A stretch of 64,000 bases of DNA, from contig NC_088295.1 in the NCBI RefSeq assembly GCF_032854445.1, positions 77,590,028 through 77,654,027 of the forward strand, written 5' to 3'. The translations under genes and the position numbers were made by a program. Source of the DNA: Liolophura sinensis. Lineage: Eukaryota > Mollusca > Polyplacophora > Chitonida > Chitonidae. Below, piece after piece: positions 3,001-63,763 of this stretch (its first letter is position 1; the number at the start of each line of letters is the position of its first letter). The notes below the pieces were generated by a model. That model was not told where the DNA came from. It searched no databases and saw nothing but the letters and a program-made list of their open reading frames with translations.

Positions 3001-6000
3001 GACTTGTGCCAGGATTGAACCCTGGATCTATCACATACACGGTAGACGCGGCACACACTGCAATGCCGCCGCAGTTGGTCAACAACTTCTGAATTTTAAA
3101 ATTATATTTCACAAGTTTCATAAAACCAGGAGACAAAAGCATCAATGTAAATAGCACAAGGTGATAATACTGTTACATCCTTCAATGCACTAGACCTACC
3201 TGCAGACAGAATTCTGAAGCCTGTGCCAGCTCATGAGCTTGTTCAGGGGTAACTTCATTATAACTGACAGGTTGTTTCAATGCTTTTTCCCCAACAGGTA
3301 TGTCCTCTTCAGCATCGGATGGTATCTGTACAAATATGGGGTGAACATGCCAAATCAAATCATTCTGGCCATTTAGTGAACAATTTCTTAATGTATAATA
3401 CTTAAATGGACACAGTATAACATCTAATACATCAGCTAACATTCTGTTACCCTAGACTACCTTAAGTTTCCCCCGGGCTCTGTCCGGTTTCCTCCCACCA
3501 TAATGCTGTCCGCCGTCGTATAAGTGAAATATTCTTGAGTACGGCGTAAAACACCAATCAAATAAACAAATAAATAGACTAACTTATGTATTACCCCAGA
3601 TAATTTACACCTCAGTTTTTTTCCTATCTGTGAGGTTACAGATACATCTATCTGACACTGAATTATCATTCAATACTGTATGCAAAACCTCCAAAAATAC
3701 ATTTGTCAAACATTACTGAATCATAGACAAGCATAATTGTCTACCTCAGTAATTCCAATCTCTGGGTTGGTTCTGAAGTCACAGTCCACAGAGAAAGGCT
3801 CGACACCACCGGGGCCATCAGGATCAATTCCGTAGCGACCATCCCAGTTTGGATTCTTGTCCTGGCCAGCCACCTTGATTTCATGACAGGTTTTGAACAA
3901 AGCTGAAATTAAATATAACATAACTCTACAGACAAACAAACCAATAACTGTCACTTTCTATACAATTTCTCCTCTGTAAAGCAAAATATGTAATAAAACT
4001 TCAAACAATCTTTTTGGTGTACTGCATGTTTATGGTTACACAAATATTGGAACACACAACAATCCTCAGTGATATTTCCCCCTAAACCCACCAGCAATGT
4101 TAAAATTCCCATGACCTAAATTAAACAACTACATTAACAAGTTGAATATTTGGACATACCAAAACAGCGTAGATCCTCTACTTTGAGTTTACGAGTCCCC
4201 TTCTGTGTTGCCGCGATGTTAATTCTGGATATTGGGAGGACTTTCTTGTCCAGCAAGCTGCCACCATCGGTATATTCCTTCCCATCAGTCTTGTCACATT
4301 GGCACTTACCACCCTTACAGCCATCTTTACCTCCTACAGATAGAAATAAAAATAATCAAATCAGATGAATTAATCAGATGTTGAGGTTTAAAGGTAATCA
4401 ATGTAGAAAGAGTTGCCTACATACACAGGGTTCGTACAGCTTAATGATTTCAAATTTCCAGGTCCAAAATTCATATTTTGGAAGCCTGGAACATTTCGAA
4501 GTCATGCAAGCTTAAATTATATTTATTATATATATTAATATATATTAAATCCGTATTAACGTACACAGCCATGTATTGATATATTGGAAACAAATTTCTC
4601 CAGGAGAATTTCAGTATGAATACATGTAAAGTGACTTCTGTTGGTTCTGTACTCTGTTCATAGATCAGTTCACAGTGTGTGTGTCAGGATAATCCTCAAT
4701 TTCAACTTTCCAGGCCTAAGTAAAAAAAAAAACACCAAAATGAATTTCCTAGCTTTTCAAGACCTGGAAAACCTGCTTTCAATTTCCAGGGGTCTCCATG
4801 TCTTCAATGCTCCACAGCCACCCTGCATACCCTAGGCAAAGAACACTGATCTTACCTGAGTTTCCAGCCCAGTATGGTAAAGCTTGACCCTCTCTAGAGT
4901 AGGCCCCAAACTCTCCTCCCAATTTGAGAGCTGCGTCTTTGCAGATGTAACTCATTTCCTGGGTGCAGTATTCTGAGACCTCCGTCAGGGCTCTCAGCTG
5001 CTCTGTGGTGGACGACTTATACTCTACAGGAATGTCTTTGCCTGCAGCTGGGATTTCCTCTGGTTTTTCAGCCTTGGGCTCTATTACCTGACAAAGAGGA
5101 GAAATAAGTGTAATATCTTCCTGTAAAAATATCATTACTGCCTAATTTCAAAATGTTCCTTGCACTCATTGTTCATAAAGCTGTAGTGGCAACAAGTAGT
5201 CAACAGCATTCAGCAATGTCTTCCATCAATATGTTCTGCCTCAAAGGCAGGGAAAGCTGTCGGCAACTTGCCAGAGTTTGGTGATTCACCCCAGGCAGTG
5301 GTTTCGTCCACTCAGAAAAATTATTGTAAAACAACACTCAAATAAATAATAAATAAATAGTTAACAAACACACATGTATGTTATCCAATGAAAGAATATA
5401 GATTTAAACCTTTTTTGGTTGCTCTGATGTGTTGGATGACAATTTCCATCCAAATGTATCTATGACAAAGACCTACTGTTATGCCAATAGGGGGTCCTTT
5501 TAGCATTTCACAGTAAACAGGGAATGGTGGCAGAGGTCCTAGCTGGTCAGGATCGATCAACCAAGGCTCACTGAAAATGGGTTCCCCAGGAGTCTTGGAG
5601 TTTCTCAAGTCTTGACAGTCCTTGGGTATACCTGTAGTAATAGGATTGCCGAAATCGTTAGCTGCTGATTAAGAGTATATGTACGTTCTGTAGGTAAAAT
5701 ATATGTGGGCAAAAAAAATTTCATTTTTATTAAAGCTGATTTGTTGCATCAATTCAATGAATTCCATATTAAAATGGAAAATACAAGTCTATTTAAAAGG
5801 ACACAGTCTAAACTATTTTGACTAGCTGGTATGACATAGGCAAGTCCATACCCTCGCCTAGGCTAAATTTAGGTATGGCACAGGTATAACAAAGGTTGCA
5901 GGATTTAACCCAAGAATCCTGATCTCTACTGTCAGTCAATCAGCATCGATTCTGTATTTCTTTAATAAACCGCATGCAGACGATTTGATTTGTTGACTGC

Positions 6001-9000
6001 CAAGTACATGTTCTATTTTCATTCGAAAGTTAAACTAGACAGTTTAATCAACATTTATAAAGATAAACTGGTATACAAACCAAACTGTGTGTTGCTGCAC
6101 TCAAGGGATCCCAAAAAGTACTCTGCAAATCGTGTCTCTGACTCTGGGACATCCTTCTCATCCAGGCCAAAGCAGATTTCTGAGACAGGAAGCAACTTCT
6201 TTTCGATGAAGAGGCCCTGGTCCTGTCTACGATCTTGGTCACTAATGTCACAGTTACAGGCTCCACCTCCCTGACATTTGCCCACTTCTCCACATGCACA
6301 TTTGTCGCCTCCAGCATTACCAGCCCAGCCTTGTGAGAAAGGAAAGAAAATATGTAGGCGTTAAAGGATGTTGGAGAAGGAAATACAATGTGTACACAAA
6401 TACAACTTTATGTACGTAAATCCTTTAATACTTATCATGAATTAACGTATCATGATATTTCAATATAATCAAAAGCCCTACAAACGTAGATTTGAAGACA
6501 AAGTACTTTGTTAAATAACAAAAAAGAAATATCTTTGACCATAATAATTGTTTGATTGAATGCGGTTAAATACTATACTTATACCAGAACATATTTATAC
6601 AAGAGTAGTCAGGTTTATGGCAAATGGGCAGACATTGGAGAAAATCATGTACTTGAGAAATCTCCTGAATTAGAGGAGCAGAAAGCGAACTCGTTGGTAA
6701 AGGACTCAACAGCTAAAATGGGACACTTTAGCAGAATGATCCAGAGAGGGCTGATAAAGATAAACGTAGACAGTAAAGTCGACACATCCTTGTATACAAT
6801 GAGTTAACCAATTGGATAAGACTAACCTTGCTGTTTCTCTCCATTACTGGACTTCCAGAAAGCATTCTTAGTTAGCGACGCATGCTGACATGTGAACTTT
6901 CCAAACTGTCTGCAGAATCCAGATTTCTCTGTCAATGCCTACAAATAGTTTCAGATATCCAAATAAATGATGGAATGTAAAGCATAATAATCACCTCTGT
7001 TGTAATAAAACTAAAATATGTCATGTAGAAATTCAACCTAAAATCATAGTGTTAATGATTTTATATTTAACAGCCTCTTAAACACATCTTACCTCCAACT
7101 GTTCTTTGTTAGCATTGGCATACTGTGGTTTGAAACACTGAGCCCCTGGTCCACGGTTTTCAGGAACATCCGGCAAAGCATAGTAGTTTCCAGCTACAAA
7201 ACAGGAGGCCACATGTTATAACTTACATGTGCCTTTTTGTTTCATGTTTTACTCAAAAGTCAGATGACTTTCCATGTTATAAATTTCATGGAGAAACAAG
7301 ACATGACACAAGGATGAATCTGACAATGTTTAATTATGAGGATGAACAGAGTGGGAGCTTGGTTTGAAGACAAACTTTATTAGTCTTGAGCATACCATTA
7401 ACCAGTAAGCAAGGTTTTCATCACTGAGTGAGAAATGTATCATGTGATGCGTCACTTGTGTGAAATGACTGTAGCATACCCCACAATGCCACATACCAAA
7501 TCAATACCAAAAAAAAAACACAAATAAGCTGTTAAAACAGGTAAGACAACCAAATGGTAAGACACAGACTTTCATTATCCACCAATTGATTTCAAGTTAA
7601 TGCTGCAGTGGATCAAATTGCGTATTACTTACACTATTACATGTAAAGACGGTTTATTGATGAAACAGAAATAGCATTTGATTTCACACATTTTGAGAAT
7701 ATTTTAATAAATTTGAACAAATAATAAACTCACTCAATGAAGAAGGCAATATTTAGTAAACCTCACAAATTTACCTTCTATGTCTACAATGGTTCTTGGG
7801 AAGTGGCAATAGACTTCAAAGGGATCCTGTCCTTGCGGGCCGTCAGGGTCAATCATGTACCTTCCATTGGGTGGCATGTCATTGTGAGGGCGCTTCTTGT
7901 AGAACTGCTGCATGTGGTAGCAAGTCTCAAACACCTCTGTATTGACAGCAAGTAATTTGCTATATAAATTCACAAGATCAAATACTTCCATAATGTGGAT
8001 GGGGAAAATATATAAACGCAAAAACCAGGAGAGAAACATTAAGAATGTGTCTGCATGATTATACCATTCAAATACTAATTTTCTGAACTCTCTACATTTC
8101 ATTGTTATGAACACTATCCTTAAGAATTTTACTTGTAAGGTGGAAATCAACCAACCTTGACCTTTGTTGATAGCCATTTGAGGAACACTAAGGTAATACT
8201 GATCTAACAGAGAAGGTACATGCAGAAATGATATATATGGACTACTACTACTGATTATGACTAAGCAGCAGTAATTCTTACTGCTCCTTTATATGTACTC
8301 ACCAAAACACCTAAGTTTTCCAAGAGTATGCTCCCCTAAATCATTGGCATCGTCACCTGTGTCCCCGAACGCCAGTTTCAGTACAGGTAGATCATCTTTG
8401 TTTGACAGAAAACCCTTGTCAACCCTAAATGGTGAAAACATACAAAATTAGTGATGCAAGTGCAATGGGGTGCGGGGGAATGTTGCCTGTATGTCTAACA
8501 CAAATCGAAGTGGTGTAATCCTTTAGCCTTTCGTAATATGTCATTGTTTCTGTTATACTTGTAAAGAATACAGGAGGTTCACAACGGACAACAGGTGTGC
8601 TTTTACACAGCTTGGAACCAGCTTGTGTAGGCAGAAATTGCTGAGCACTCATACCCATATAACAAATAAAACCTAATTCGTAAACAGACACATTTATTAC
8701 ACACTTACACTTCCTTGGGGAGATCAGCATCACAGTTACACACAACATCCTTCCCTTCACAATTCCCTTCAATACCACACTGGCACATGGAACCACCGAC
8801 TCCTGCAAAGTACTGCAGCTTCTTTCCATCTCTTCCTATCCAGTAGGCAATGGGGTTCTTTGGGTCATCTGGAAGAAGGGGTGCATTGTAATTTGTTACA
8901 TACACACCACGCACACAAACAGCATAACATGGACAATTTTGATGTCCACAAATACATTGATGATTATTTACAACAGATGGAAAATGAAGGCATTTCCCTG

Positions 9001-12000
9001 ACAATTCAAATAACTTTAATACCAATAATCTCCAATGCATCATTCAACAAAAACAAAGAAGAGAAAAGATTATGTACATGTATGTTCACACATGAGTTGA
9101 TGCAAAACAAGAATAGTGATAGTAGTTGTACTGCATATAGATATACAGGTGACCTCAGAAAATATCCAAATTTATATGGAAGATTTATCATGTATTTTAT
9201 ACATGTGCAAACAAAATTTCTTTCATTTATGGACTTTTTCACTTATGTTGTGTATAACTGCTTGTATACACTTTTTAGCCATTTCCTGTGTGTGGACTAT
9301 CTCACCTGTTGTGTATGATTGCCTGTTTACACTTGTTACCCATCTCCTGTGTGCAGTGTATGTTTTATCTCATCTCCTGTGTACATCACATGAATGATCT
9401 TACCTATGTCAAGTACAACTGCTTGATTACAATTACCAACGATCTCCTGTGTACAGTGTGTAGACTATCTCACCTACGCTGTGTATGACCACCTGTTTGC
9501 ACTTGTAAGTCATCTCCTGTGTATAGTGTGTGGACTATCTCACCTACATGTATGCTGTGTATGACCACCTGTTTACACATGTAAGTCATCTCCTGTGTAC
9601 AGTGTGTGGACTATCTCACCTACATGTATGCTGTGTATGACCACCTGTTTACACATGTAAGCCATCCCCTGTGTACAGTGTGTGAACTATCTCACCCATG
9701 CTGTACATAACCGGCGGTTTACACTTGTAAGCCATCTCCTGTGTACAGTGTATGGACTATCTCACCTATGTTGTGTATGACTGCCTGTTTACACTTGTAA
9801 GTCATCTCCTGCGTACAGTGTATGGACTATCTCACCTATGTTGTGTATGACCGCCTGTTTACACTTGTAAGTCATCTCCTGCGTACAGTGTATAAACTAT
9901 CTCACCTATGTTGTGTATGACCGCCTGTTTACACTTGTAAGCCATCCCCTGTGTACAGCGTATGGACTATCTCACTTATGTTGTGTGTGACCACCTGTTT
10001 ACACATGTAAGCCATCCCCTGTGTAGAATGTATGGACTATCTCACCTATGTTGTGTATGACCACGTGTTTACACTTGTAAACCATCTCGTGTGTACAGTG
10101 TATGGACTATCTCACCTATGTTGTGTATGAGTGCCTGTTTACACTTGTAAACCATCTCGTGTGTACAGTGTATGGACTATCTCACCTATGTTGTGTATGA
10201 CCATCTGTTTACACTTGTAAACCATCTCGTGTGTACAGTGTATGGACTATCTCACCTATATTGTGTATGACCACCTGTTTACACTTGTAAGCCATCTCCT
10301 GCGTACATTGTATGAACTATCTCACCTATGTTGTGTATGACCACCTGTTTACACTTGTAAGTCATCTCCTGTGTACAGTGTGTGGACTATCTCACCTATG
10401 TTGTGTATGACCACGTGTTTACACTTGTAAACTATCTCGTGTGTACAGTGTGTGAACTATCTCACCTATGCTGTATATAACCGTCTGTTTACACTTGTAA
10501 ACCATCTCGTGTGTACAGTGTATGGACTATCTCACCTATGTTGTGTATGACCGCCTGTTTACACTTGTAAGCCATCTCCTGCGTACAGTACGAGGAGTGA
10601 TCTGCCAAAGCTGCCAACTGCTCAGGACTGGCCTCATTGTAAGTCACAGGTTTGGTGTAAGATCCTGGCTCTTCAGCATCATCAACTTTGGTCTGAAATG
10701 ACATACATTCAAAGTGGAAAAAATGGAGCGTTAAGATAAGATCAACACCACATAGATTAAAAAAAAACAGATTCGAAGACATTTATTGTATTAGTCTGCC
10801 AATTTACCGACAAAACAATTATCACAGCACATGTATGCAGACTAAGATAAAGTTTATATTTACCGGTTTCTCAGAGTCATGTCCCACAGTGGTGATTCCA
10901 ACAGGCTTGTCATCTATCATTTCACAAATAACAGGGAACGGGGCCAAATTATTCCCACCTGAGTGAAAAAGATAACAAAAATACATAGAAAAGAATACCT
11001 AACCAGTTTGGTTTTAGTAAGTATTTTGAATAGCATGTCTAAAGGGCTTACATTTGTCTCAAAAATGTCACAAATACAGTTGACTGTTGCTTACTGTCCA
11101 TATAGATACAAATGTTCCTTATTTACATGTATATACTTCTTTATATATACATGGACAGATTGACAAGTGCAAAAACAAACTTTTGGGCCAAATTTCCCTC
11201 AGAGATAAATATGTAGTGTAAAATAAGGGGAGCCACTGTGATACCTACCTCCACTGTCAGTGGAAACTATTGGCTCATCAGCTCTCCTTGGCGGTCCGTC
11301 TGGGTCAATGAGGTAGGTGTAGTCATCCGTGTAGCCCTTCTCTCTATACTGCTGACACGTAGGCTCAATACCTGAAAGGTCAAAATATAACCATACTTTA
11401 GTATCGAAATAACGTTAAAAAAATAGGCTGACATCAATGTTACTATTTAATCTCCTGTATGACATGGATGATCCCAATGAGAACAAACAGATGGGCACGC
11501 ACACACAAAGATAAGGCCATGCCTGCAAGGTGCACAAAAGTAATTAACGGTTGATTTTATTGTGGCCTAATCCCACTTTAACAATACTGCAATCAATATT
11601 TGACATAAGCAACAAATGATAAAAAAAAATTCCCAGAGCAATGCAACACTGTCAGTAACTAAAACATAAAGTTTTCAATCACATTTTTATCACTAAAGCT
11701 CTACTTTATATTTCGATGACTATCTGAGTCTCCAAAGAACCACTCCTCTCTTCAATGCAGCGGATATATCTCAATTTCCATCCTGTTAAGTCAACATATA
11801 AAATCCCTCCAAAACACATAAAAGAACGTCTGAGAAACTCACCAAATTGGTTCTGTCCACACATCAGAGGCCCCACGGACAATGAGCCTTTCTTGTCTCC
11901 TCCTACCTCCTTCAGAGTCACGGATCCCACAGGAAGATCAGCTTTGTTGATGATCAGACCAAAATCTTTCCTCTCTTTGCCATCAGCAATGTCACAGTTA

Positions 12001-15000
12001 CAGTTGACCTTGGGGTCCTCGCATGACTTTGTCACCCCACACCCACACATCTTCTCCTGTCCCAGGCCACCAGCCCAGTATGTTCTCTTCTTCTTATCTG
12101 TGCCTGACCAGAAACTGTCTTTGCCCATTAAACCAGAGTTCTGGAGGGTAACAGAGATTTTTGCACCATGACAAGTCAAAATATTAAAAAACTATATTTA
12201 TCTGCTTTAAAATAAAATAAATTAAATAATGATAAATAAATAATAAATTAAATAAATGATTTAAATAAATGAAATAAATTAAACTATATAATGATAAACA
12301 CCATAAGTAGATTTTCTATGTCCCTCACCAATATTCTACACCTTCTGTGCATTTGTCAGATAGATACAAAAGAGTATGCACGTAATATTCCCATTATCTT
12401 TATTCTAAATTAATTGAAACCTACCGTGCATGTGTAAGACATTTCCTGAGAACAGAACTTGGAAGTTTCGGTCAGTTTTTTAACTGCCTCTGGTTTCACA
12501 GGATACTCTACAGGAATTTCACCAGGTGTATCTGGTTTATTCTCCTCTGGACTAGACAGAAAAGAGGAAAACAAATTAAGCTAAAAAACAAATACTCGGA
12601 TACAGCTACTAATAAGGCGGACCTAATACTGTCTAAAAACAACAAAAGTCACTTCAATAGGCATCCCTTACATGTAATGTAATTACATGCGTTTACATTA
12701 GTATGTCTTGAACTTGTACCTGGCATCAATAAACCCACATACAAATGGATTCATTGTCATGGCCTTACTATTAATACTATAACAGTCTTGAACTATGTGT
12801 ATCACAATTTTATTTTTGAAGGTATATTTTTTTCAAAATACACATGCCACACAGCATACAGAATGGAATTGTTTGAATTACAATAAAGTATAAGAAATTC
12901 CACAGTTGGACAAAACACAAAACATCTGAAAATCAGTATGACAATCTAAAAAGGAACTCACAGCGTATTGGGGATGATGGTGACCCCTGTGCTGGGATAA
13001 GATGTCATATCACAATCAGCCACAAAAGGTTCCAGGTTTCCAGCCTCATCTCCATCTGGGCCATCCACATCAATTAGCTGAGGACCATTTCTCTTCTGAC
13101 CATAATTCCTGAGAGCATCGTCACAATCAAGGGGAATATCTGACAATTAAAAACACCACTTAAGAAAACTGGGCCCAGGTATTCTGTAAATATTAGGATG
13201 TCTGTCCTTATGGAAATAACTCTATACCCTGAAAAGCTGTTATCTAAGAAATAAATGTATGTCATAATAAAGAAAGAAAAGAAGACTTACACATTTGGCT
13301 ATGTTAATTTATTTATTCATTTGATTGGTGTTTTACGCTGTACTCAAGAATATTTCACTTATACAACTGCTGCCAGCATTATGGTGCAAGGAAACCAGGC
13401 AGAACCCGGGGGAAACCCATGACCATCCGCAGGTTGCTGTCAGATCTTCCCACGCCATGTTAATGACATGTTCATAAAAAGTAGTTGTACTCACAACATT
13501 GGATTGACTTAAGGAAGGGCTACATTATAAATGCAAGTGTGAATCCTGGACTCCTGTGGGTATATGGTTAAATACACTTATACCTACAGAGGTTTGCAAA
13601 TTTCCTCAACGAAGCCACATACCTGGCTGCTCCATCTACCTCCCCGAAACAGTGTCCTAGACTGAACACCGTGATCAAACAGTTTACGATAATAATTTTG
13701 CTTCCCAAGAACATTTGCCCTTTTTATTCCTTTATCAGCAAACCTGTGTACAAATCCCTTACCAGGTATTTAGAGAATAACATCACATGGATAACAACTT
13801 CTGATTTATTTCATTTACAACACTGCAATGAACATTCTAACACAGTCAAGCATCAACCAAGGTACTTGTACATTGCCTCAATACTTCCTTAAGCATAATT
13901 CAAACTTCTGACTCCCAACTTTTAAATGATGTTCAGCAAAACAGCTCCAACTGAGCTATGAATTCAGATGGGATGAAGTCCAGTTACAAAAAGTGGATGA
14001 TTTCCACATACTTATATAACATCAACATAAAACATTTTATTCCAATCCTGAGTTTGAGTTTAAGAGCCAATGTAAAAAAAATACCTGTACTATTATTAAG
14101 GCATGCTATTTTAGTAGGCCATCAACTATAGACTTTAATATTGTGAAGTCTTCGTATTAACAGAAAATGTAATTACTCACCAAACTGTTTGGGTCCACAC
14201 ATGAGAGGTCCCACAGAGGACGCTGCCTTCTGTCCTTTATTCACCCCACCAACAGTAAAGGCTTTCACAGGCAGCTGAGTCTTGTCAATGATCTTAGTCT
14301 CATCCACCTGATCTCTCATTGGAGTTCCGTCACAGTTACACTGGCTGCCTGGATTGGCGCATGTACCCAGCATCCCACAGTAACACTAACAAACACAAGC
14401 ATGGCAAAATAAGCCTAGGAAACACATTCTCTTCAAAACCTTGACAGAAAAGGGTCACACTTGACTCATATAATCAAAATTGCTCTCCTGTTAATAGCTT
14501 AACTGAATTACATTAATAATATGATGACATTTCAAAAACAAACCAAACAACCAAATTAAGATGGGTCAAATCAACATGGCTGTATATGCGACAGGATGGA
14601 TGTATTTGACCAGATATATCCAAACAGATTTTATTTCTAAAGTGAATAGAGTGGACATTAATTGTCCAGTGCTCACAAGTGTTTAAGTAATATGGCTGAC
14701 AAAAAGAAATGGTCACTTTTTAATCTGCAAAAACAACATTACCTTTCTCCTTATTAGGGGTCCACCCAGGTACTCCTGAGGGACACCTATTGAAATCGTT
14801 CGGATTATTATTATTATTTATTTGATTTTATGTGCAGCATATAGCCTAGACCACTTGACCGATTAACTTGAAATTTCGCAGTATTATTCCCTGATGGCTG
14901 AAGTTGTGCACTACGGAGCCCGATTTTTGTCAAGTCACATGGTTTGGAGGCCATATTGGATTTTATATGAAATTGTTTAAACATCTTCTTCTCAAGAGCC

Positions 15001-24000: not shown

Positions 24001-27000
24001 TGCTACCTTATGATATTAGTCTATAATAAGTAGAATACATCTCATTTAAGTCTAAGACTGTTTAGGCAGTTTAATTATCATGGGACCAGAAGAATTTAGT
24101 TATACTAAAGATTCTTCAGGTTCATCAGCTCAGAGGGGAAGAAACGTTACATCTGTCAAAGACAGTTCAGAACCTACATTCATACATGTACTACCCGGTA
24201 TGTGTGTATACAAAGTTGAACAGTTTTGAATATCAGGTCAGACTACATGTCATGTAGCAGCATACATGCAAAATGAGTGACGTGTCCCCTCATTATTAAC
24301 CAGCAAGTTACATGTAGCCCATGTATTATGGTACATATTTAGAGTAAAATGAGTTACATGTGCCCACACTATTATTTGCCTAGTTACATCTTCCAGTAAC
24401 AATATTAGAATATTCCATACATATTTAGTGACACTGATTTGCTCAACAATCAGCATGTACTACTGATTTTTTGATACTGCTTCATAAACCAAGCTTCATA
24501 CCATCCATTTTAGCATCTGTGTATCCAATCCAAAACTGGCCTGTCAGTCCAAGTAATATCATCTGCTGTGTGACAAACTCTATGTCACGATCATTAATGA
24601 GGGAAGCCAAGTCACCTCCCTCAGACTGGCACTGTTTTCTCGCATCACTAAATGTTTTTGGAGTTTCTTTGAATGAATAGCACCCATCTAGATGCTTGAT
24701 GAACCCAGGGGGACATGCAGCTGCAAAACAAACCAAAAAAAAAAACATAAAACATAAAACATGTCTGTGGTAAAAATAATCAACAGTACATTCTATCCAA
24801 ATGGGGAACAAGACAGTCCAAATGGGGAACAACGCAGTCCAAACCAGGAATAAGACAGTCCAAACCAGGAATAAGACAGTCCAAATGGGGAACAAGACAG
24901 TCTAAATGGTATACCGTTTTGTTCTTTTCAGTAATATGTCACTGTTTCTGTAAAGTTGTGCTCATAAAGCAAATAAGGAAGATCACAAGCACTGCAACAC
25001 AACGGCAGCTAATGATGTGTTTTTACAAAGCTTTAAACTGACTTGTGCAGGCGGAAAATGGTGAGTCATCACAATCATTGCAGAACTCATTATCACCTAT
25101 GAAGTCATATGTTAATAGTTAACCCTTTCGGTACTGCATTCCTTTGACACCATATGTCATAATGACCTAGATTAATTTTTAGATAACGACAGCATTTTTT
25201 TCAAAAGCGATTTTGGGTGAGAAGAATTCATGTAAAGTCAAAACACATAATGCATCATTTGTAGGAAATTGAATAAGCTTTCAGAATATACATAATTTGA
25301 AGGTGTAGGTGCCCCCCCCCCCACAAATGTAAGGGGGGGGCAAATCCCCCACCTTCTAAAAAAATACACAGATTGACAATTTTGTGATTGTTTTCTTACA
25401 GAAGTAAAGGAAGATATTTATTTTCAGTCATCACATGAATGAAACAATTGTTGGAAAGGTAATAATGTTTCAGAATATTATTGTTTTAGGTTGTACGTGC
25501 CCCCCCCCCCCCCCCCAAAAAAAACAATTGTGTCTGAGGGGGGGGTGTGGCTGTAAAGTCACCTCCTATCCCTCTGAATATGTGAAAAAAACAATTTCCA
25601 AAACAAGATATTCCCTTTCCTACAGAAATAGAAATAAGGGTCTGAGTTAGTATCACCGTCAGAATCTGCTCTATCGGCGTTGATTTGTTCATTATTTGAG
25701 TCCTTATCTGACGTGCCAGTGACAGAATGAGCACTTGGTTCATTGTCACTTCCGCCATTATCGGTATTGGACATGTCATGTTCACTGTTTTGTGCATGTT
25801 GTAGTTGTACCTCGGCAAAATCACGAATTTTGATGTCAGAATTATCCTCACTAAATGTGTCATTTTCGTTGTCAAAGTCATCATCACCTGAATCACTATC
25901 GGCTTGAAGTTCCTCCAGCACCTCCTGAACTGTAAACCTCGCCGCCATTATCAGCTGACCACGAAAACAAAAACAAAATTCCACGTCGAACTCTGTAAAA
26001 CTAGCTATCAAGATGGCTGCCTATCGACATGCTGTAAATAGAAAAGGTCTTCCCCAAGATCACGTGACTCCTGCCGTTGATGTTAAAAATAACCTAATTC
26101 CCGGGATTCCCCCTATTACGCGTCATATGACAGGTGTGATACTCGCTCGACTGGAGTCGAGCCTCGGCCGTGAAACGAGTTTTTCGTGGCTCGACTGCAG
26201 TCGAGCGTAGGTCTCAAAGAGTTAAAATACAGCCACAGATGACCTACGGACTCTACACCCTGTGGCATCCTCTCCCTTGAACCCATCTCCCATGGCTCCC
26301 TCAGGACAAACACAGGCTGATGACTCGTCAGGTAGGAGGACACAGTCAGCAGATTCCACACACAGCTCCTTCTGGAAGACTGAGCACTCCACAGGCTTCT
26401 CTGGCTCCTTGGGTTTGTTCTCTGATTTAAAAAAAAATGAAAATATCTCACCATCATTTCACAAACGAGATCTTTAGCCCAATCAAAACATTTTGAGTTT
26501 CATCTGATTTCTTGTCTTTGAATTTAAATTTACCTGTGCACACTCTGCCATCTCCAGTGTATCCTTCCAAGCATACACAAACATATGATCCTTCATCATT
26601 CCTACACTCAGCAAACGGTGAACACAAGTCTGTTCCGTCCAAGCATTCATTTACATCTGAAGATAAAAACACATACATGTAGGCGACAAATACAACATAA
26701 CTGTAATAAACAATATGTGTAAATACTTTCAATAAATTTTCTGCTGCATCATCAGCTGAAACCAAAACTTTTAAAAGATATGTGAAAAGGAACTAAAAAC
26801 AAAGATTATGGTTCTGGGGGAAATGAAGAAAATTTTGTCAATATAAAAATGAAAATGTTTTGGAAATGAATCTGCTGAGCACCTCTCATTCCCCTCAGAA
26901 AACAAAACAAAGCCTTTCATGTCTCCTTTACTATAGATGTGAACGTGGATCAGAGAAAGCCATCCATTCATCCTACCTTCACAGGTAAATCCATCCCCAG

Positions 27001-42408: not shown

Positions 42409-43553
42409 CCGTATATACTCCTTCTCGAAGAAGCCAAGGTGACACTGAAAGTAGAAGCTAATCTGCTGATTATATTATCCGTGTGAAAGAGTTACAGGCG
42501 TAATGGAAATGTTGATAGAGGTTTGTGGACATGATTTATGGCATCGAATCATTGGTATATACAGCCCTCCCACGTACAACAGTTCGTTAATATAGGCACT
42601 GAATCCGTTCCCTGTGGTCTGTAAATTTTTGTCTGTGATCTGTTTTGATGTTGCGTACCCACATTTCCAGTCATATGAGTGGAATATCCCTATGTCTACA
42701 ATACTGCGGCATTATGGTTTCGTTAAGTGTTAAACCGTACCGCATCAGTGTGGATATCGTATCTTGATTGTGTGACCTTTGGTTGTGTAAAAATCAGAAA
42801 GTTAGCAAAGACACCTACGTGTACTAGTTCTGCATGTATGTTAGGTACAAGTCTTGTCGGTGTGTATCAGTTGGACTATACAACAGTTATATAACAGGTA
42901 TCAGGTGTCTGCTTCACCTGTGCGTATTTAGTGTATATCTCACCTGTCTACTCTCACCTGTGTATATTAGGTATCTGTCTCATTTGCGTGTGTTGGGTGT
43001 CTTTTTCACGTGTGTACATTGGGTATCTGCCTCATCTGTGTGTATTGGGTCTCTGTCTCACCTGTGTGTATTGGGTTTCGGTCACACCTGTATGTATTGG
43101 GTATGGGTCTCACCTGTGTGTATTGGGTGTCTGTCTCATCCGTATGGATAGGGTATCTGTCACATCTGTATGTATTGGCTGTCTTTCTCACCTCTGTGTA
43201 TTAGGTGTTGGTCTCACCTGTGTGTATTGGGTTTCAGTGTCACCTGTGCGTATTGGGTATGTGTCTCACCTATGTGTATTGGGTATCTGTCTCTCATGTG
43301 TGTATTGGCTGTCTGTCTCACCTGTGTGTATTGGTTCTGTCTTACCTGTGTGTGTTGGTTGTCTTCCCACTTGTATGTATTGTCTGTCTATCTCACCTGT
43401 GTGTATTGGATGTCTGCTAATCATAAGTGAACTCCGAGTAGGAGTACAAATCGGCTGCAGGTAGTAGTTGTTGAGAACTATCGCTTCAATCGCTAGGGAG
43501 TCGAAATTTGGAGTGGAGATCCCCGGGCCATGAAAACTCGCGTCATCCCAACC
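42409..43553 (-). pseudogene. Arylsulfatase B-like locus 1, gene fragment
   Basis: Exon 2 (43397-43553) reads GWDDASFHGPGISTPNFDSL and then QPICTPTRSSLM, with the sulfatase active-site CxPxR in which the cysteine becomes formylglycine. Its upstream flank reads CTGTAC where an AG acceptor should be. An exon 3 relic at about 42665-42755 (LTLNETIMPQY) is then frame-broken. An exon 4 relic at 42409-42444 starts CHLGFFEKEY (family WHLGF) with a stop soon after. Exon 1 is absent from the matching duplicated block, and exons 5-8 were not found. It is a dead copy generated by duplication with locus 2. Confidence 0.8.
42890..43430 (-). repeat. 26-bp splice-donor minisatellite at sulfatase locus 1
   Basis: About 20 units of the type CTGTCTCACCTGTGTGTATTGGGTGT (plus strand). 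On the minus strand each unit equals the end of exon 2 (CCAATACACACAG) followed by its donor (GTGAGACAGAC). The unit next to 43397 is the real exon end. Confidence 0.93.
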
Positions 43554-45690: not shown

Positions 45691-46396
45691 TGTATTGAAT
45701 GAAGAAAATGCTAAACAAGAACAGTCACAAAACTTTCCACGCATGGTAGAACACAGTTTGAATAAATACGTGCAATACACGCATTACATCTTGTCGATAT
45801 ATCAGCTCGGTGGTTCTGTTAACATATAAGTCTGCAGCGATCGTGCTGGTGGACTATAAATCAACCTAACAACAATGCCGGGATTCTGCTAGCGGACTAA
45901 GAATCCCTGCGGCCGGGATCCTTTGATTTGTTTTCATGTTAATCACCAAGTGTGATGGTAACACACCATTTTTAAGAATCCTGGACCAGTAATCTACGGA
46001 ACAGCTATCCAAAATCTCATTTTTTAAACCAAGTTCTGCTGATGTACTGTTTGTATAGAGTTTTTTTTTAAGTTGCTACTATTTACCCAGTTAAATGAAC
46101 AGTTAGAATAATACCCTAACTGCATGAGGTAGATTAACAAGAGGCTGGATCTCACAAGTTACGCTCGACCGTTTGTCAGCCAGCACACTGCCGTCACTGC
46201 TCTGATATACTACACTACACGCAGTGAAGTCTATTGCGAATTTCACCAGGTCTATTTCACACTGAACAGACTATGCATTGTAACTATCATACATAATATA
46301 TGTATTCATTTTTTGTGTTAAATTGCCAACTTCAGTGCTATTCTGTTAAAAGGATTCCAAATTGCGACAAATGCTGCATAATATTTAATTTTAGCT

Positions 46397-46500
46397 CAAT
46401 TTATTTATTTGATGTTTTACGCCGTACCCAAGAATATTTCACCCATACGACCGCTGCCAGCATTATGGTGGGAACGAAGCCCACCACCATCTGCAAGCAG
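46397..46500 (-). repeat. SINE (main family), fragment
   Basis: TTTATTTATTTGATGTTTTA, then CGCCGTACCCAAGAATATTT and CCAGCATTATGGTGGGA in reverse orientation. Confidence 0.8.
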
Positions 46501-47157
46501 ACACTTTTAGCTAAATATAAAATAGGTGACTTCTAGCTGAAAATCGTTAAATCACAGTTATATTGCCATTATAATTTACGTTGGTATGTATTCAAATGAA
46601 AATGTATCTTGAATTTTTTGTCAAAATTCAAACAATTTATAACGGTGTATTGATCACTTATATGACAAATAATTGGCAGTGTGCAAAATGAGGTAATAGT
46701 GACTGTACTTATACATACCACGAGAAGACTGTGTGAATTTTCTGCAATTTAATACGTTATTCATTAGCAACATGAACTGCAAACAACCATTTGACTCCCG
46801 TTAGCTGTTAAGCGGCAGTCACGGTATATGGCAATCACGTTAAATGTTACTGTTGTTTGGGCTAAATAGGTCATGGTACATAGAGCAAAGGGCTTGTGAA
46901 AGACGCGGAAGAACGTATTCGTTATCGCAGATACGGTATCGTTTCGGTTATCGTATACGGTTTCCCGTATATATGCCATTAGGAAGAGACAATTCCTTCT
47001 AATTAAAATGAGTTCCAAATATTATACGTTTTTCCCATTCCAGAGATTATTTGTTGTCCATGGACAGTTGCTATAATACCAGAAAACAAGCTAGGGACTC
47101 CAGTTCTTCAATAAAATAGCAACACAATGCGAAATACGTAATGAGAATTATTAAATG

Positions 47158-50100: not shown

Positions 50101-53100
50101 CAGTAGGAAACTGGGATAGATGGAAGTAACATCATACCTATAAAAGTAGGTAAGAGCATTTACTTTTATACACATCCTGTTCCTGGTGGCATTGAGAGAC
50201 AAGTGCTTGTGCGAATGAGAACATTTTGGTATTGATCGGATATTTCGACAAGGGATGAAAAAAGAGAAGGTTAATTGTGATGCAGATAACTACTGGTGAC
50301 TACCTCTGAGGTATTATGAGAGAGGATAAAGACTGGTAATTACCTCAGAGGTATTGTGAGAGCGGATGATGTTCTCAGCAGCAGACGAGAAGAGTTCCGT
50401 ACTGTAGCTTCCGTTCTCATTCCGCACCACGTTCATATCCTGACGGAAGTCCAAACCTGAATACGTCTAAAATCAGGAAAATAACACATTATACTTGTCA
50501 CGTGTAAGTGAGGGGGAAACTGTATCGTAGTTCTGCATAGTCGTTCATTAACTGAATTCTGTCATCCGAAATGATAACAATTGTCAGCTGGCATGGTGCG
50601 CTTAAAATTCGACAATTACACATAATACAACTAAACTTTCTTCACACGACATTGCACGTTTAATCCACGATATCAAGATCGACTATACTTTTAACATTGT
50701 GGTATAAAAAGGTCTGTGATCGTGTGGTAGGCTTAGTTTTCATTTCTTTTGTTTTAATCAGGCTAAAGAGACGCTATCAGGCAAAATAAAATATCGGTCG
50801 TTATCAGTCATTTTGTTTCATTCCCCTTTGACACTCGATCGTTCACAAATATCTTTCAGAAGAGTTCATCAGAATTCTCCCCCTTCCCCATTTCAAACAT
50901 TACCATAGTGAGGACGACCTGGCCGAGTCATAAATGAAAAAAAATTGTATTACTTAGGACAGACAAATAAAATCTTGATCCACGTACATCGTCTGCCACG
51001 TGATCGAAGTAGTCCTCCTTTCCCAGCCAGTATCCGAAGTGGCTTTTGAAGCCTCGATATGTGGGAGTGTATTCTTTCTGGAAGAATCCAAGATGCCACT
51101 GCCGAGAGAAAACAAAACTATCACCGAATAAAGTAATTATTCATGGTCAAAGAAATCCGCTTTAGCAACCCTAATGTGTTTTTCCTCCCTCCCCCCCCCA
51201 CTTTCCCCCCAATTATCTAGTACTTACACAAACTGTATCATAATAGCAAATTATATACTTTCCCGTTTCCCCACTTTGTCCACTTTTGATCCTAGTCCAA
51301 AATAGGATCATTTCCTTTTCCCCATTTCTCAGGTATGTGCACCTTCGATACTAATCGATAATAGCATAACTTACTTTTCCACAGTTTATGCACCTTTAAA
51401 GTTCGAATCCATAATAAAACATCTTACTTCTTCACACATTCCAGCCTAGTCCAGCTTATTAACTTACTTTCCCCTAGTTCCCCATCCCGTGCACCTTCGC
51501 TCAAAACCCAGAGTAGCCTATTGTACAACTTACTTTTCCTACAATATGAGATGAATATCCTAACTTGTTCAAATACTGCGGCATAATTGTCTCGTCCAAT
51601 GACAATCCATACGGTTGAGGCCCCAGTATAACCGAATGCTGTAAACCTGTAGATAGAGAATTAAAAGAGGAAAAAACAAAACAAAAAAATCAAAAAAGAT
51701 GAAACACTGACTCACTTTCTCACCTGTATGTTTTAGGTGTCTGTCTCACATGTGTGTATTTGGTCTCTGTCTCTTCTGTATGTATTGGATGTCTCATCTG
51801 TGTGTATTGGGTGTGTCTCACCTGTGTGTATTGGGTGTCTTTCTCACCTGTGTGTATTGGGTATCTGTCTAACTTGTGTGTATTGGGTGTCTGCCTCAGG
51901 CATTTGTATTGGGTGTCCGTCTCACCCGTGTGTTTCAGGTGTCTGTCTCACATATGTGTATTAGGTGTCTTTCTCACCTCTATGTATTAGGTGTCTGTCT
52001 AATCTGTGTGCATTGGGTGTCTGTCTCACCTGTGTGTATTTGGTCTGTCTCACATGTGTGTATTGCGTGTCTGTCTAATCTGTGTGTATTGGATGCCTGT
52101 CTCACTTGTGTGTATTGGGTTTCTGTCTCTCTGTGTCTATTGAATGTCTGTCTCACTTATGTGTATTGGGTGTCTGCCTCACATGTGTGTTGGGAGTCTG
52201 TCTCACCTGTGTGTATTAGGTGTCTGTCTTACCTGTTTGTATTCCTGATTTCCCTCCTGTGTGTATTGGCTGACTGCCTAGCCTGTGTGTATTTGGTGTC
52301 TGTCTCACCTGTGTGTATTGAGTGTCTGTTTCACTTGTGAGTATTGGGTGTCTGTCTCACCTGTGTGTATAGAGTGTCTGTCTCACCTGTGTGTTTCAGG
52401 TCTCTCTCTCTCACCTGTGTGTTTTTGGTGTTTGTCTGCCTGTGTGTATTGGGTCTCTGTCTCTCTGTGTCTATTGAATGTGTATCTCACTTATGTGTAT
52501 TAGGCGTTTGTCTCACCTCTGTGTATTGCTTGTTTTTCTCACCTGTGTGTATTGGGTGTTGGGTGCCAATCGTATGAGTGGAATATCCCAATTTCTTCAC
52601 ATACTGCGGCATTATGTTTTCGTCAAGGGTTAAACTGCACGACATCATTGAGGATATCGTACCATGCTAATCTGTGGTTGTGTAAAAAAAGTACTTAGCA
52701 AAGACACCTGTGTGTACTGGTTGTGCATATATGTCTTAGCTGTGTGTGTTAGGCGCAAGTCTTGTCTGTGAGTATCAGCTGGGACAGTTATATAACAGTT
52801 ATATTAGTCCCAGTATCAGGTGTCTGCTTCACCTGTGAGTATTTAATGTATATTTCACCTGTCTACTCTCATCTTTGTATATTAAGTATCTGTCTTATAT
52901 GTGTTTTTGGTATCTCTCTCGCGTGTGTATATTGAGTGTCTGTCTCACCTGTGCGCAGTAGGCGTTTGTCTCACCTGCGTGAGAGTGTCTGCCTCATCTG
53001 TGTCTATTGGCTCTCTTTCTCACCTCCATGTGTTGAGTGTCTGTCTGATTTGTGTGTCTCACCTTTTTACATTTTGTTTCTGCTCACTTGTGCGTATTGG

Positions 53101-54904
53101 GTGCCTGCCTCAGCTGTGTGTATCGGGGGTCTGTCTCTCACCTTTTTACATTTTGTTTCTGTTCACTTGTGCGTTTTGGGTATCTATCTCACCTCTGTGT
53201 ATTGGGTATCTGCCTCATCTGTGTCTACTGGCTCTCTTTCTCACCTGTGTGTGTTGAGTGTCTGTCTGATCTGTGTGTCTTGAGAATATGTCTCACTTTT
53301 TACATTTTGTTTCTGTTCATTTGTGCGTATTGGGTGCCTATCTCAACTGTGTGTATCGGGGGTCTGTCTCTCACCTATATACATTTTGTTTCTGTTCACC
53401 TGTGCGTATTGGGTTCTGTCTCACCTCTGTGTATTGGGTGTCTGCCTCATCTGTGTCTACTGGCTCTCTTTCTCACCTGTGTGTGTTGAGTGTCTGTCTG
53501 ATCTGTGTGTCTTGAGAATCTGTCTCACCTTTTTACATTTTGTTTCTGTTCACTTGTGCGTTTTGGGTGCCTGTCTCAGCTGTGTGTATCGGGGGTCTGT
53601 CTCACTTGTGTGTATTGGGGGTCTGTCTCATTCGTGTGTATTGGGTGTCTATCTCATCTGTGTGTATTGGCTGTCTGTCTCACCTGTGTGTATTGGTTGT
53701 CTGTCTTACCTGTGTGTGTGTTGGTTGTCTTCCCACTTGTATGTATTGTCTGTCTATCTCACCTGTATGTATTGGGTCTCTGCCAGCTATAAGTGTACTC
53801 CGAGTACGAGTACAAATCGGCTGCACGTAGTAGTTGTTGAGAGCTTTCCCTTCCCTAAGTTGGAGTGGACTCCCAACCGTACAGCATGTACATGTATGAC
53901 ATCTTTCACTTGTTTAAGTTGTAGCGGTGTGACTGGTGATTAACCTTATCCTAGCCCTGCAGTAGGGACCAATGTACTTTCTCAAGTATCTGACCAACCT
54001 CCCCATGTTAGGTCAATTAAAAACTAGTCGTAAAAGGATTCCAAATGATTTTGAGTGTCCTGTAAATATTTCTGACCAGGTTTTATTTACATTAACCTCA
54101 CACAAAGGTCTTGTATTTAAATAATAACAACTCAACTTAGTGGTAACTTTTTACGAGCACAAATCAATGTTGATAAAATAATTACACATAAAATATAAGC
54201 CTAACAAATGAATCATGTATTCTTTGGTTGACAACACCGATGGTAACTACATGTGTTTACCTGGTATCTCCGTGGCCGAGTTGATTATCACGCCAGCTCT
54301 CTTCAAAATTATGGTAAAGCATGAAGTGAAAATGGTACCCCTGTATTTTACGCAGCGGCTGGATCTGTTTTTTGAAAATATGTCAAGCTCAAGCGCAGCG
54401 CAATAGCCCAGGAGCATCTCACCAATGTGGTCTCAGTGAGTTCAAGACCAGCTTATGGTGGGTTTCCTCTCCGCTTGAAGGTCTGCCAACAACCTGCCGA
54501 TCGTCATGGGTTATTAGTGGGCTCTGCCCGGTTCCACCCATCATAATGCTGGCCGTCGTCGTGAGTATTCTTGAGTACGGCGTAAAACACCAATGAAATA
54601 AATAAATAAATAAAGGAACAAATAAATAAATAAATAAATAAAACAGTTATATACCCAAACATAAGTTAAAATTCAGCAACCTGCCTTAATATACAAAATC
54701 AATTAGTGTAAATAAAACTATGTATTCATGACTTTTCTTTATGGACTTGCTGTGTGACATTAGGACCTGTACATTGAATTGTCTCACCAAGTCGTCTGCC
54801 GCGATTAGTATGATGTGTGGTCTGCTCGAGTTAGATAACGTCGACGATGGGAACAACAACATCACCGCCAAGCATATCCAGCATCCATGGTTTGGAACAA
54901 ACAT
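47158..54904 (-). CDS. Arylsulfatase B-like (N-acetylgalactosamine-4-sulfatase family) locus 2, exon 2 defective
   Basis: Exons: 1 at 54788-54904, 3 at 51534-51646, 4 at 50988-51098, 5 at 50344-50466, 6 at 49439-49571, 7 at 48974-49127, 8 at 47158-47860. They join in frame and carry family landmarks: [12 protein letters not shown] (metal-binding Asp pair), [74 protein letters not shown] and [17 protein letters not shown]. The family removes sulfate from glycosaminoglycans in lysosomes or outside the cell. The only exon 2 between exons 1 and 3 (53763-53878) is 41 bp short and has CTRTR for CxPxR. As assembled the gene therefore lacks its nucleophile. Exons 3-8 show no lesion, so misassembly or a haplotype swap is possible. 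Confidence 0.85.
48285..48475. repeat. 42-bp tandem repeat, 4 copies
   Basis: Unit TTAAAGCGGACCGTGGTTGC then TAGTGTACTACAAGAGGATC; copies start near 48303, 48345, 48387 and 48430. In intron 7 of sulfatase locus 2. Confidence 0.85.
48500..48975 (-). repeat. Degenerate repeats of the exon 7 donor region of sulfatase locus 2
   Basis: Plus-strand blocks of the form CAGTxTTAC...GACAGTCACACGAGGCATGGTTACC occur near 48604, 48775 and 48871. The real exon boundary (CAGTGTTAC|CTGAGGGGATAGTTACAGGC) lies at 48966-48990. AGATACAGGC follows in two of the copies. They look like old duplications of the exon end plus donor. Confidence 0.6.
49630..49746 (+). repeat. SINE (main family), 3' part
   Basis: GGTTTCCTCCCATCATAATG through ATTCTTGAGTACGGCGTAAA to an AAATAAATAAATAAAG tail. 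It is in intron 5 of sulfatase locus 2; a short reverse fragment lies at 49313-49343. Confidence 0.82.
50290..50385 (-). repeat. Two-copy duplication of the exon 5 end plus donor, sulfatase locus 2
   Basis: TACCTCTGAGGTATTATGAG followed by AGAGGAT at about 50301 copies TACCTCAGAGGTATTGTGAG followed by AGCGGAT at 50341. On the minus strand both read CACAATACCTCTGAG|GTA or its equivalent. The copy at 50344 is the exon end that fits the other loci; the other is intronic. Period about 40 bp. Confidence 0.8.
51715..52562 (-). repeat. 26-bp splice-donor minisatellite, locus 2 proximal array
   Basis: About 30 units of the same 26-bp family as 42890-43430. It lies immediately upstream (gene sense) of the intact exon 3 and is not attached to any exon 2. 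It probably marks the remains of an intron 2 whose exon 2 has been lost. Confidence 0.9.
52565..52665 (-). pseudogene. Extra, isolated copy of sulfatase exon 3
   Basis: Reads [23 protein letters not shown], homologous to exon 3 at 51534-51646 ([24 protein letters not shown]) and to the relic at about 42665. The 5' part of the exon is degraded (MSCS instead of QPYG) and no splice sites are evident. It lies between two minisatellite arrays, so it came with the segmental duplication. Confidence 0.7.
52820..53790 (-). repeat. 26-bp splice-donor minisatellite with higher-order repeat, locus 2 distal array
   Basis: About 35 units ending at the defective exon 2. Between 53040 and 53570 a higher-order period of about 230 bp is seen, marked by CACCTTTTTACATTTTGTTT at about 53070, 53293 and 53527 with extra copies between. 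A secondary amplification thus happened within the array. Confidence 0.9.
53763..53878 (-). pseudogene. Defective exon 2 of sulfatase locus 2
   Basis: Homologous to 43397-43553 but 116 instead of 157 bp. A deletion removes the WDD...HGPGIST part, leaving an in-frame stop after GWESTPT. The active-site motif reads CTRTR. As in locus 1, the acceptor position reads CTGTAC with no AG. It adjoins the 26-bp array at 52820-53790. Confidence 0.85.
54395..54640 (+). repeat. SINE (main family), nearly full length
   Basis: GCGCAGCGCAATAGCCCAGG head, B-box-like GTGAGTTCAAGACCAG, middle block ATAATGCTGGCC, tail CACCAATGAAATAAATAAAT. It is in intron 1 of sulfatase locus 2 and pairs with the copy at 44275. 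Confidence 0.85.
54788..54904 (-). CDS. Sulfatase locus 2 exon 1: signal peptide and first metal-binding motif
   Basis: ATG at 54904. [20 protein letters not shown] looks like a signal peptide, followed by [13 protein letters not shown], the start of the sulfatase fold with two adjacent aspartates. The donor TTG|GTGAGAC is in phase 0, matching exon 2 of the other loci. It is absent from the left duplicate. Confidence 0.85.
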
Positions 54905-62430: not shown

Positions 62431-62714
62431 GTGACGGCCACCGCTTTTGGTATCGGTTTAGAAAAAAACCGAAACACTGTATGCTGCTGCCTTTACAGAA
62501 ACATGAGCCATTTGGAATTTTACATAACGGAGTGGGCTGAAATGGACAATACAAATAACAATATAAATGTACAGATAAAATACACTTCATATTCTATTGA
62601 ATAAAACACATAAGAGGAAATGTCCGAGGGGGAATTGTCCATAGGGGGAAATGTCGAAGATCTCTCTGTTGCATTCTTTAGTCCCATTTGCGAAATTTAT
62701 ACCATCAAATCAGG

Positions 62715-63005
62715 TGTCTGTCTTGTCTATGTTTATTAGGTGTCTGTCTCATCTGTGTGCTTTGAATGTCTGTCTCACCTGTGCGTATTGGGTGTGTGTC
62801 TCACGTGAGTGTATTGAGTGTGTTTCAAACCTAATGTCTTTCTGTCCTGTGTGTATGGGATGTCTGTCTCACCTGTGTGAATTCGGTGTCTGTCTCACCT
62901 GTGTGTATATTGGGTGTCTGTCTCACCTGTGTGTATATTGGGTGTCTGTCTCACCTGACTGTATTGGGTGTCTTTCTCACCTGTATGTATTGGGTGTCTC
63001 CCGGT
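62715..63005 (-). repeat. 26-bp splice-donor minisatellite at sulfatase locus 3
   Basis: About 10 units, some of 28 bp (CTGTCTCACCTGTGTGTATA then TTGGGTGT), adjoining exon 2 at 62981. On the minus strand each repeats CACCCAATACACACAG|GTGAGACAGA, as in loci 1 and 2. Outer units near 62715-62850 are degenerate. Confidence 0.9.
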
Positions 63006-63763
63006 CATTATTGTACTTCGTGTAGGTGTACATATCGGCTGTACGTAATAGTTGTTGAGAATAATTACGCTCCTGGCCAGCTCGTCAATGTTAGGTGTGG
63101 AGATCTCCGAGCCGTGAAATCTCACGTCATCCCAGCCCTGTTTGTGACAAAATAACACAACATTAAGCAGTTTATCGAAAAGGGTAATATCCCAGTAACG
63201 TACAAAGTGTTCATGCGCATTGTAACGCAGTGGATACGTTCATTAATTTCTCAAGAGAGAAACGCTATAAATTTGTTTGAATAAGATTCAACGTCGCTTT
63301 CAGCCTTACCTCGACGATGTCTCTTCCTAGCACGTCGGTTCTAATACCGTTTTTTCCTGACAAAGCCAGAGAAAACTGGAGAAATCCATTTATAGATGAG
63401 AAACTTTTTTCACCGAAGGGTGACAGTTCTTGGTGATAGATTTTGGAAAAAAATCACTCCAAACAGGTAAATTACTGAGTCAAAAACTTGTAAACTGAGC
63501 GTCAAAGTCTAAGTCGATAATCGCAAGAACAACTTTAATCATCAAGCCCCACAGAAATATGGAAGAAACAATATGACTTGAGAGAGTTAAAAAAGGACAC
63601 GCACGGCACTAAATTAAAGCACCTGTGCGCTTACGAGATCATCGGAGACGATGAAATCAATGTGAGGTCTCTGTGCAGACCGAGCTGTGATATGTTTTAT
63701 CACACACCCAACACCGAGTAGGAGCACAAATACGTGCCCTTGTACAACGCTTCTGGGTAGCAT
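62981..63763 (-). CDS. Sulfatase locus 3, intact exons 1 and 2
   Basis: Exon 1 (ATG at 63763, 43 codons, donor CTC|GTAAGC in phase 0) carries a hydrophobic signal segment (HVFVLLLGVGCVI) and PHIDFIVSDDL. Exon 2 (acceptor AACAG at 63138, 52 codons plus one base) carries [20 protein letters not shown], the only exon 2 in the window with both a normal acceptor and an intact CxPxR motif. A truncated product could be made from exons 1-3, but not a whole enzyme. Confidence 0.85.

Follow-up and report, generated by a model that had tools for sequence, protein, structure and literature searches.

A 70-bp array at the end of a coding exon

The window, by which we mean the whole stretch of 64,000 nucleotides of Liolophura sinensis that was analysed, carries on its minus strand three coding exons (A, B and C; Table 1) that form a single open frame of 137 codons plus a stop when the first copy of a repeated donor is used to join B to C. 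The intron between B and C contains a 70-bp minisatellite that continues into exon B. TRF placed this array at 9442-10589 (period 70, 16.2 copies, 89% matches, score 1677), and reading of the minus strand showed that degenerate distal units continue it to about 9231. The border 10536/10535 lies inside the TRF array, and the unit consists of the last 53 nt of exon B and 17 intron nt, that is, the exon-final CTGTAC...CAACATAG followed by GTGAGATAGTCCATACA. The preliminary description had proposed that the repeat contains the exon border; this is upheld by the in-frame join of the three exons and by a paralogue with the same border. The array is a real, non-chance feature.

Table 1. Features of the window (slashes mark exon–intron borders) and families of the exons that end at CAGGTGAGT arrays elsewhere in the genome
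Feature	Position in the window	Strand	Evidence
Exon A, upstream coding exon, 95 nt	10864..10958	-	AG...GT borders; reading frame continues in exons B and C; paralogue exons match
Exon B, 157 nt; last 53 nt form the exonic part of the repeat unit	10536..10692	-	A-B-C join; exon end at homologous residue in paralogue L002
Authentic 5' splice site ATAG/GTGAGATAG, first copy	10527..10535	-	G of GT at 10535; score 9.25; inferred from the reading frame
Minisatellite of about 19 70-bp units, in the intron and 53 nt into exon B	9231..10589	-	TRF and strand reading
Array-bearing intron	8869..10535	-	
Exon C, downstream, with stop codon; acceptor CTTCTTCCAG/ATGACC, score 4.3	8705..8868	-	In-frame join
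26-bp array, donor 43397/43396 of an arylsulfatase-like exon	42906..43416 (TRF rows 42906-42982, 42952-43416)	-	
26-bp array, donor 53763/53762 of a second arylsulfatase-like paralogue exon, frame-broken	51718..53782	-	
26-bp array, donor 62981/62980 of a third arylsulfatase exon, 63138..62981	62714..62999	-	Pfam Sulfatase E 2.3e-09
40-bp unit, 2.1 copies, donor 50344/50343 of exon 50466..50344	50285..50367	-	
L008, SNF2-related			Pfam E 7.2e-06
L009, TELO2			E 3.1e-06 for the whole; single stretches weak
L012, fucosidase			E 5.9e-04, below the curated cut-off; TRF array includes no more than the final three exon bases
L013, Fe-hydrogenase C domain			E 1.8e-12
L014, 2-oxoglutarate dehydrogenase (OGDH)			E 3.9e-49 to the last residue, GMPHR; Pfam only 0.0038
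L015, TRPM			E 1.2e-12 for the preceding exon; TRPM2 chains, e.g. 6d73, reach residue 106 of 108
L017, ABCC (ABCC3)			E 1.1e-33 to the last residue; Pfam 7e-06
L018, Tsr1/BMS1 C-domain, RIBIOP_C			E 3.7e-11
L020, SPT3			E 2.9e-07 to the last residue

The intronic copies keep splice signals. Eighteen tandem GT donors, including the authentic one, are spaced 70, 76 or 98 bases apart between 10535 and 9305 (two overlapping GTAGGT sites are excluded from this count), and a weak nineteenth (GTGAAAAAG) lies at 9242; the earlier reading of about 19 units, each made of an exon end and a 5' splice site, thus holds. All 17 further donors score at least 5.9 on a simple position matrix, and 16 of the 18 reach at least 9.25, the score of the authentic site, the remaining two scoring 5.9 and 6.9. 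The matrix alone is therefore unable to pick the donor that is used, which, judging from the reading frame, is presumably the exon-proximal one.

Translation continued past the authentic donor yields GEIVHTLYTRDGLQV before it meets a stop. Use of a wrong copy had been expected to break the frame, and the predicted outcome is more disruptive than that, an in-frame TAA being reached after 15 codons in the first intronic unit. The candidate ACACAG/G acceptors described earlier are present in the array but weak, 12 AGs scoring at least 0 with a best value of 3.2 against 4.3 for the acceptor of exon C, and the cassette size, given as 44 bases, is corrected here to 43 (10368..10326).

Divergence from the unit consensus grows with distance from the exon (Spearman 0.59, p 0.009; 0.69, p 0.005 in the near copy of the gene described below), in agreement with the earlier observation that the units are regular near the exon and degenerate distally. 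The growth from the exon outward that had been proposed was not borne out, as likeness to the exon copy showed no significant fall with distance (0.31, p 0.21; near copy 0.43, p 0.11). Donor columns were less changed than other columns in both 70-bp arrays (4.5% vs 13.5%; 0.7% vs 7.8%), and across the 26-bp arrays of the window their conservation was inconsistent. We do not claim it as a sign of selected decoys, since it is absent as a consistent trend in the 26-bp arrays. Differences from the exon copy amounted to 7.3, 9.0 and 13.7% at the three codon positions, values that rest on a single exon copy and on units that are not independent.

Paralogues and age of the array

For the 137-aa protein Pfam gave no match and PDB none that was convincing (best E 0.058); it may resemble contactin-associated proteins in their cysteine-rich fibrinogen-like part. 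A near copy of the gene lies 159 kb off, with exon B differing at 1 of 157 bases and an array of about 15-16 units. A further paralogue in the same genome matched at C1:77918223 (61%) and 77918759 (57%), a C7 match spans the splice position with small gaps at 33-38% identity, and other matches were weaker. In the 61% paralogue (L002) the exon ends homologously, AACTTGG/GTGAGTTTG, with one GTGAGT donor, and TRF detected no array in the corresponding intron. As L002 has the same border without the array, the array is the derived state.

Distances between units were 0.144 and 0.116 within the two arrays and 0.131 between the arrays of the gene and the near copy, so that the array is likely older than the near-copy duplication. 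Its absence from L002 and presence in the near copy place its gain after the L002 split and before the near-copy split. Concerted evolution after gene duplication was considered and rejected, given that these within- and between-array distances indicate no separate homogenisation. The near copy and the window align in blocks of 83-99% with unalignable stretches between them. Because the heterozygosity stated for the chiton Liolophura japonica is 1.24% (PMC11068029), we favour the view that the near copy is a paralogue, a divergent leftover haplotype being the alternative.

Other donor-containing arrays in the window

Ten arrays were retained in the window (TRF period of at least 20 and score of at least 100; overlapping rows merged, and an AAAT-type run at 12208-12291 left out). 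Five of them, the TRF array at 9442-10589, the three 26-bp arrays and the 40-bp array, contain the donor of an exon, and in each the array reaches no more than one unit past the border on the exon side, namely 53, 19, 19, 18 and 23 bases, respectively, in the order of Table 1. For the other five no tie to exon borders was established, inspection having covered the two that are not at 24796, 39555 or 40057. The arylsulfatase-like genes are tandem paralogues with related 26-bp arrays, and we therefore count these three arrays as one origin. The array of only 2.1 copies may represent a young or nascent stage; its exon (41 aa) had no Pfam match, and the assignment to arylsulfatase was a reading by eye.

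The exon at 53763-53960, beside the array at 51.7-53.8 kb, which is the longest of the donor arrays, seems by eye to carry deletions that disrupt its frame, and this arylsulfatase-like paralogue may be a pseudogene. Elsewhere in the window, a 21-bp (7-codon) repeat of 5.4 copies at 24796-24909 overlaps a 139-codon open frame on the minus strand, and cross-matches revealed a short multi-copy element interspersed on both strands (3455-3609, 13293-13494, 33766-33985, 46378-46530 and 49610-49721).

Donor motifs in arrays across the genome

Searches for three motif copies at 29-59 bp steps returned 735 matches for CAGGTGAGT (292 + 443) and 30 for the reversed motif (14 + 16), match counts being inflated by long arrays. 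The same-composition null CAGTGGAGT yielded 79 matches (63 + 16) and its reverse 148 (91 + 57). Counted by a reader as distinct arrays, there were at least 14 for CAGGTGAGT in the first 46.4 Mb of C1 and 15 for CAGTGGAGT genome-wide, 4 of them on C1. Triple arrays of CAGGTGAGA also exceeded their control (369, 159 + 210, vs 101, 61 + 40). However, AGGTAAGT arrays were no commoner than those of the reversed control, with 626 (241 + 385) vs 468 (287 + 181) matches and 16 vs 15 distinct arrays in the first 72 Mb of C1, so that the enrichment may be special to GTGAG-type donors.

The acceptor-like motif TTTTNCAGG gave 370 triple-array matches (205 + 165) vs 120 (71 + 49) in the control; at least one third of the approximately 100 acceptor-pattern rows among the matches listed come from one array at C1 92.72 Mb. 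These counts neither prove nor exclude 3' arrays. Two arrays recovered with the control motif TGAATGGA, at C1:14407258 and C1:72125225, have donor-like cores all the same (AAGGTAAATA; other strand AACAGGTGAGCC).

The mitochondrial contig of the assembly carries COX3, ND3, ND2, COX1, COX2 and ATP6 on one strand and ND5, ND4, ND4L, CYTB, ND6 and ND1 on the other, as read by eye, COX1 alone being named by family search. Such a mitochondrial gene order is molluscan. Seven COX1 copies occur at steps of about 15.5 kb on one contig (G000:C99:8348-102844), which is either a concatemer of mitochondrial DNA that the assembly retained or a nuclear copy.

Exons at the edges of arrays

Of the 14 distinct CAGGTGAGT arrays among the matches listed, 9 have the end of an exon of known family at their first copy (L008 to L020 in Table 1), with the array of the TRPM gene beginning 11 bases past the donor according to TRF. 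The codons of the exon itself are visible in the unit at L008, L013, L017 and L020. The remaining 5 of the 14 listed arrays had no exon end at the edge (L010, L016, L019 and L021) or an exon that ends about 70 nt before the array (L011). A second array, of 75-bp units with CTCAGGTGAGC, lies upstream of the TRPM exon (L015:1-1566; C1:6947800 on).

In 10 control arrays, obtained with TGAATGGA, no convincing exon ended at the edge on either strand (0/10), and the sense frames at the edges of all 10 had no PDB match. Open frames reach the edge in two of these controls (L069 and L070), without a family match, and the flank of a third (L065) has a 7tm_1 match, the frame of which stops at 2013, 113 bases before the array. 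The contrast of 9/14 with 0/10 has a Fisher p of 0.002, which becomes 0.047 if L069 and L070 are counted as exons (2/10), for exon calls that were made by eye and not blind and with PDB searches picked for promising exons, so that the homology effort was uneven. With Pfam alone (E 0.001) the difference was not significant: 4/14 vs 0/10 (p 0.11), or 5/14 with a joined two-exon query (p 0.053). The challenge that repeats might be placed at random with respect to 5' splice sites is thus answered in part, by the exon ends found at the first copy in 9 of the 14 listed CAGGTGAGT arrays and in none of the 10 controls.

Among the first 10 AGGTAAGT arrays, 4 had an exon end at the array (L052, L057, L058 and L060), and L054 was unclear and was not counted. 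The sole family match among those four was a Core-2/I-branching-enzyme exon with a GTAAGT donor (L057; Branch, 1.4e-06); no Pfam match was obtained for L052 and L060, and neither a Pfam nor a PDB match for L058. The exon at L058 (C1:3803800-3806300) apparently stops at GCGAGT, a donor of the GC type, and the tandem copies behind it read GTAAGT or GTAAAT, so the donor in use may have moved.

Exons chosen regardless of repeats

A sample of exons independent of repeats was taken as the 30 best of 81 Myosin_head matches, with borders placed by score and some loci overlapping or sharing one gene. Two of the 30 donors (L039, and L047 by eye) and none of the 30 acceptors lay inside an array containing them, a difference that is not significant (p 0.49). 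At L039 the exon end GTGTGTGATCATCAG/GTATGTG recurs at 66-bp steps, with 6 further copies at 0-2 mismatches in 24. At L047, GGCAACAT/GTGAGTATGG was seen by eye to recur from about 59 bases on, and an automatic search with more exon bases returned one weak copy. In these 30 exons an array of any kind starts at 5 of the donors or no more than 100 bases past them, and at 2 acceptors one ends no more than 100 bases upstream; arrays near the donor but excluding it (L031 and L041) are as common as those including it. The 5'-over-3' bias raised in the preliminary description is therefore suggested, not proven, by 2/30 donors vs 0/30 acceptors, the arrays of the acceptor motif being mildly enriched too. 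One myosin exon of about 151 bases (L045, C4:1245672-1248818) is closely flanked by arrays on both sides: the upstream one stops 15 bases short of its acceptor, and the downstream one begins 14 bases past its donor. This is possibly an old case.

Origin of the arrays

We consider it quite probable that the 70-bp array is a mirage-like exon-border minisatellite, the tandem copies of which have spread into the intron with the nearest donor remaining in use, and that it is a by-product and not a splicing device. The best reading of the data taken together is that donor arrays are a recurrent class in this mollusc and not an isolated case. A short segment with the final bases of a coding exon and the adjoining 5' splice site would be duplicated in tandem, and the copies would multiply into the intron through slippage or unequal exchange. 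The acceptor of the exon would pair with the nearest donor, through exon definition or because that donor is transcribed first, such that the exon-proximal copy would be spliced and the remaining copies removed along with the intron. Duplications of this kind would be tolerated, the exon and its donor staying intact, and those that lengthen the exon would be purged by selection. This filter alone could confine the arrays to the intron side, so the direction of growth would need no active cause. The arrays would then lengthen introns as by-products, without working as an alternative-splicing device.

An account in terms of pure survivorship is possible, although we doubt it: duplication would occur everywhere alike in a minisatellite-rich genome, and next to exons only arrays from the donor onward would persist, with no seeding needed. 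Many arrays indeed have units that lack a donor motif, a downstream duplication leaves the exon intact, and in the myosin sample the arrays that exclude the donor are as frequent as those that include it. However, survivorship alone predicts neither the presence of the exon end in the unit nor the excess of 735 over 30 matches, unless such duplicates are favoured or formed more often. It strikes us as rather doubtful that in chitons the 5' splice site is a preferred minisatellite seed through a process tied to the donor (e.g. transcription- or splicing-linked breaks or R-loops at GTGAG-type donors), that such arrays are amplified at thousands of introns and are a main route of intron growth, and that they impose a strict nearest-donor rule on the spliceosome. 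The motif CAGGTGAG might itself be minisatellite-prone independently of any role in splicing, for example because recombination takes place or a protein binds there, and would then sit at exon ends incidentally. The enrichment of GTGAG-type motifs in arrays, with AGGTAAGT not above its reversed control, would fit this idea, but it is unlikely given that 9 of the 14 listed CAGGTGAGT arrays have their start where a coding exon of the same strand ends (at L015, eleven bases past its donor) and that other donor types, GTATGT at L039 and GTAAGT at L057, are also found in arrays.

The ladder of alternative donors or cassettes envisaged in the preliminary description exists as far as the candidate donors are concerned, but the in-frame stop would make its use disruptive. 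As a working device, in which several donor copies or 43-base cassettes would give isoforms or poison transcripts that tune expression, we regard it as very unlikely. That 16 of the 18 donors reach the authentic score, and that the donor columns are conserved in both 70-bp arrays, is what such a device would lead one to expect; every distal donor, however, adds an in-frame stop, the candidate acceptors are weak, the conservation of donors is not general and copy numbers differ between close paralogues. Assemblies are error-prone at tandem repeats and the border is known here from DNA alone, but it is scarcely credible that an assembly artefact or a mis-called exon has produced a repeat without a real border: the assembly is stated to be HiFi-based (PMC11068029), the paralogues share the border, and exon ends match homologous proteins to the last residue of the query (ABCC, OGDH and SPT3).

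Comparison with known systems and significance

The mirages of amphioxus, described in Adh3, the globins BflGb6 and BflGb9 and other genes, copy both 5' and 3' borders, and regular splicing was suggested to be undisturbed (PMC3087553); the tandem repeats of PGBD5 and a troponin C case come in addition (PMC3902484). Minisatellite-like boundary copies, many of them with splice signals, are common to those accounts and to the chiton array, so the likeness to mirages drawn in the preliminary description is apt in anatomy, but the host is a chiton and not amphioxus. The published mirages were treated gene by gene in cephalochordates, with units of 10-72 bp in Adh3, 150-160 bp in the globins, and 60 and 108 bp in PGBD5 (PMC3087553, PMC3902484), whereas here several unrelated genes of a mollusc carry units of about 26-70 bp. 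Furthermore, the chiton arrays were found via the donor motif, acceptor arrays having been sought only in the 30-exon sample and in one motif search. Amphioxus mirages are marked by copy-number differences between haplotypes and by somatic instability; in the chiton the copy number, about 19 vs 15-16 units, was compared between the gene and its near copy in one assembly.

Intron gain through tandem duplication of AGGT-bearing segments, an idea attributed to Rogers (PMC3087553) and illustrated by a potato RdRp case (PMC4974935), likewise involves a tandem duplication that carries a splice signal. In those accounts, however, a new intron arises in a former exon, whereas the chiton intron pre-exists, is shared with the repeat-free L002 and grows. 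Ordinary intronic minisatellites and VNTRs share the head-to-tail units, the degeneration at the edges and the change in copy number, and the chiton unit adds to these an exon end and its donor. No mollusc case of exon-border arrays was found in the titles and abstract openings of the open-licence literature, and the parts consulted of the chiton genome paper, which gives repeat classes, yielded nothing on exon borders (PMC11068029).

As presented in the amphioxus papers, mirages would otherwise be a curiosity of a few genes. The same anatomy in a mollusc, in unrelated genes and with the motif far above its reversed control, suggests an exon-border behaviour that is convergent or widespread. 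The arrays set near-identical donors, up to dozens at a time, against one another as a natural experiment, so that exon definition and the choice of the nearest donor should be readable from transcripts, and they tie tandem duplication to the lengthening of introns.
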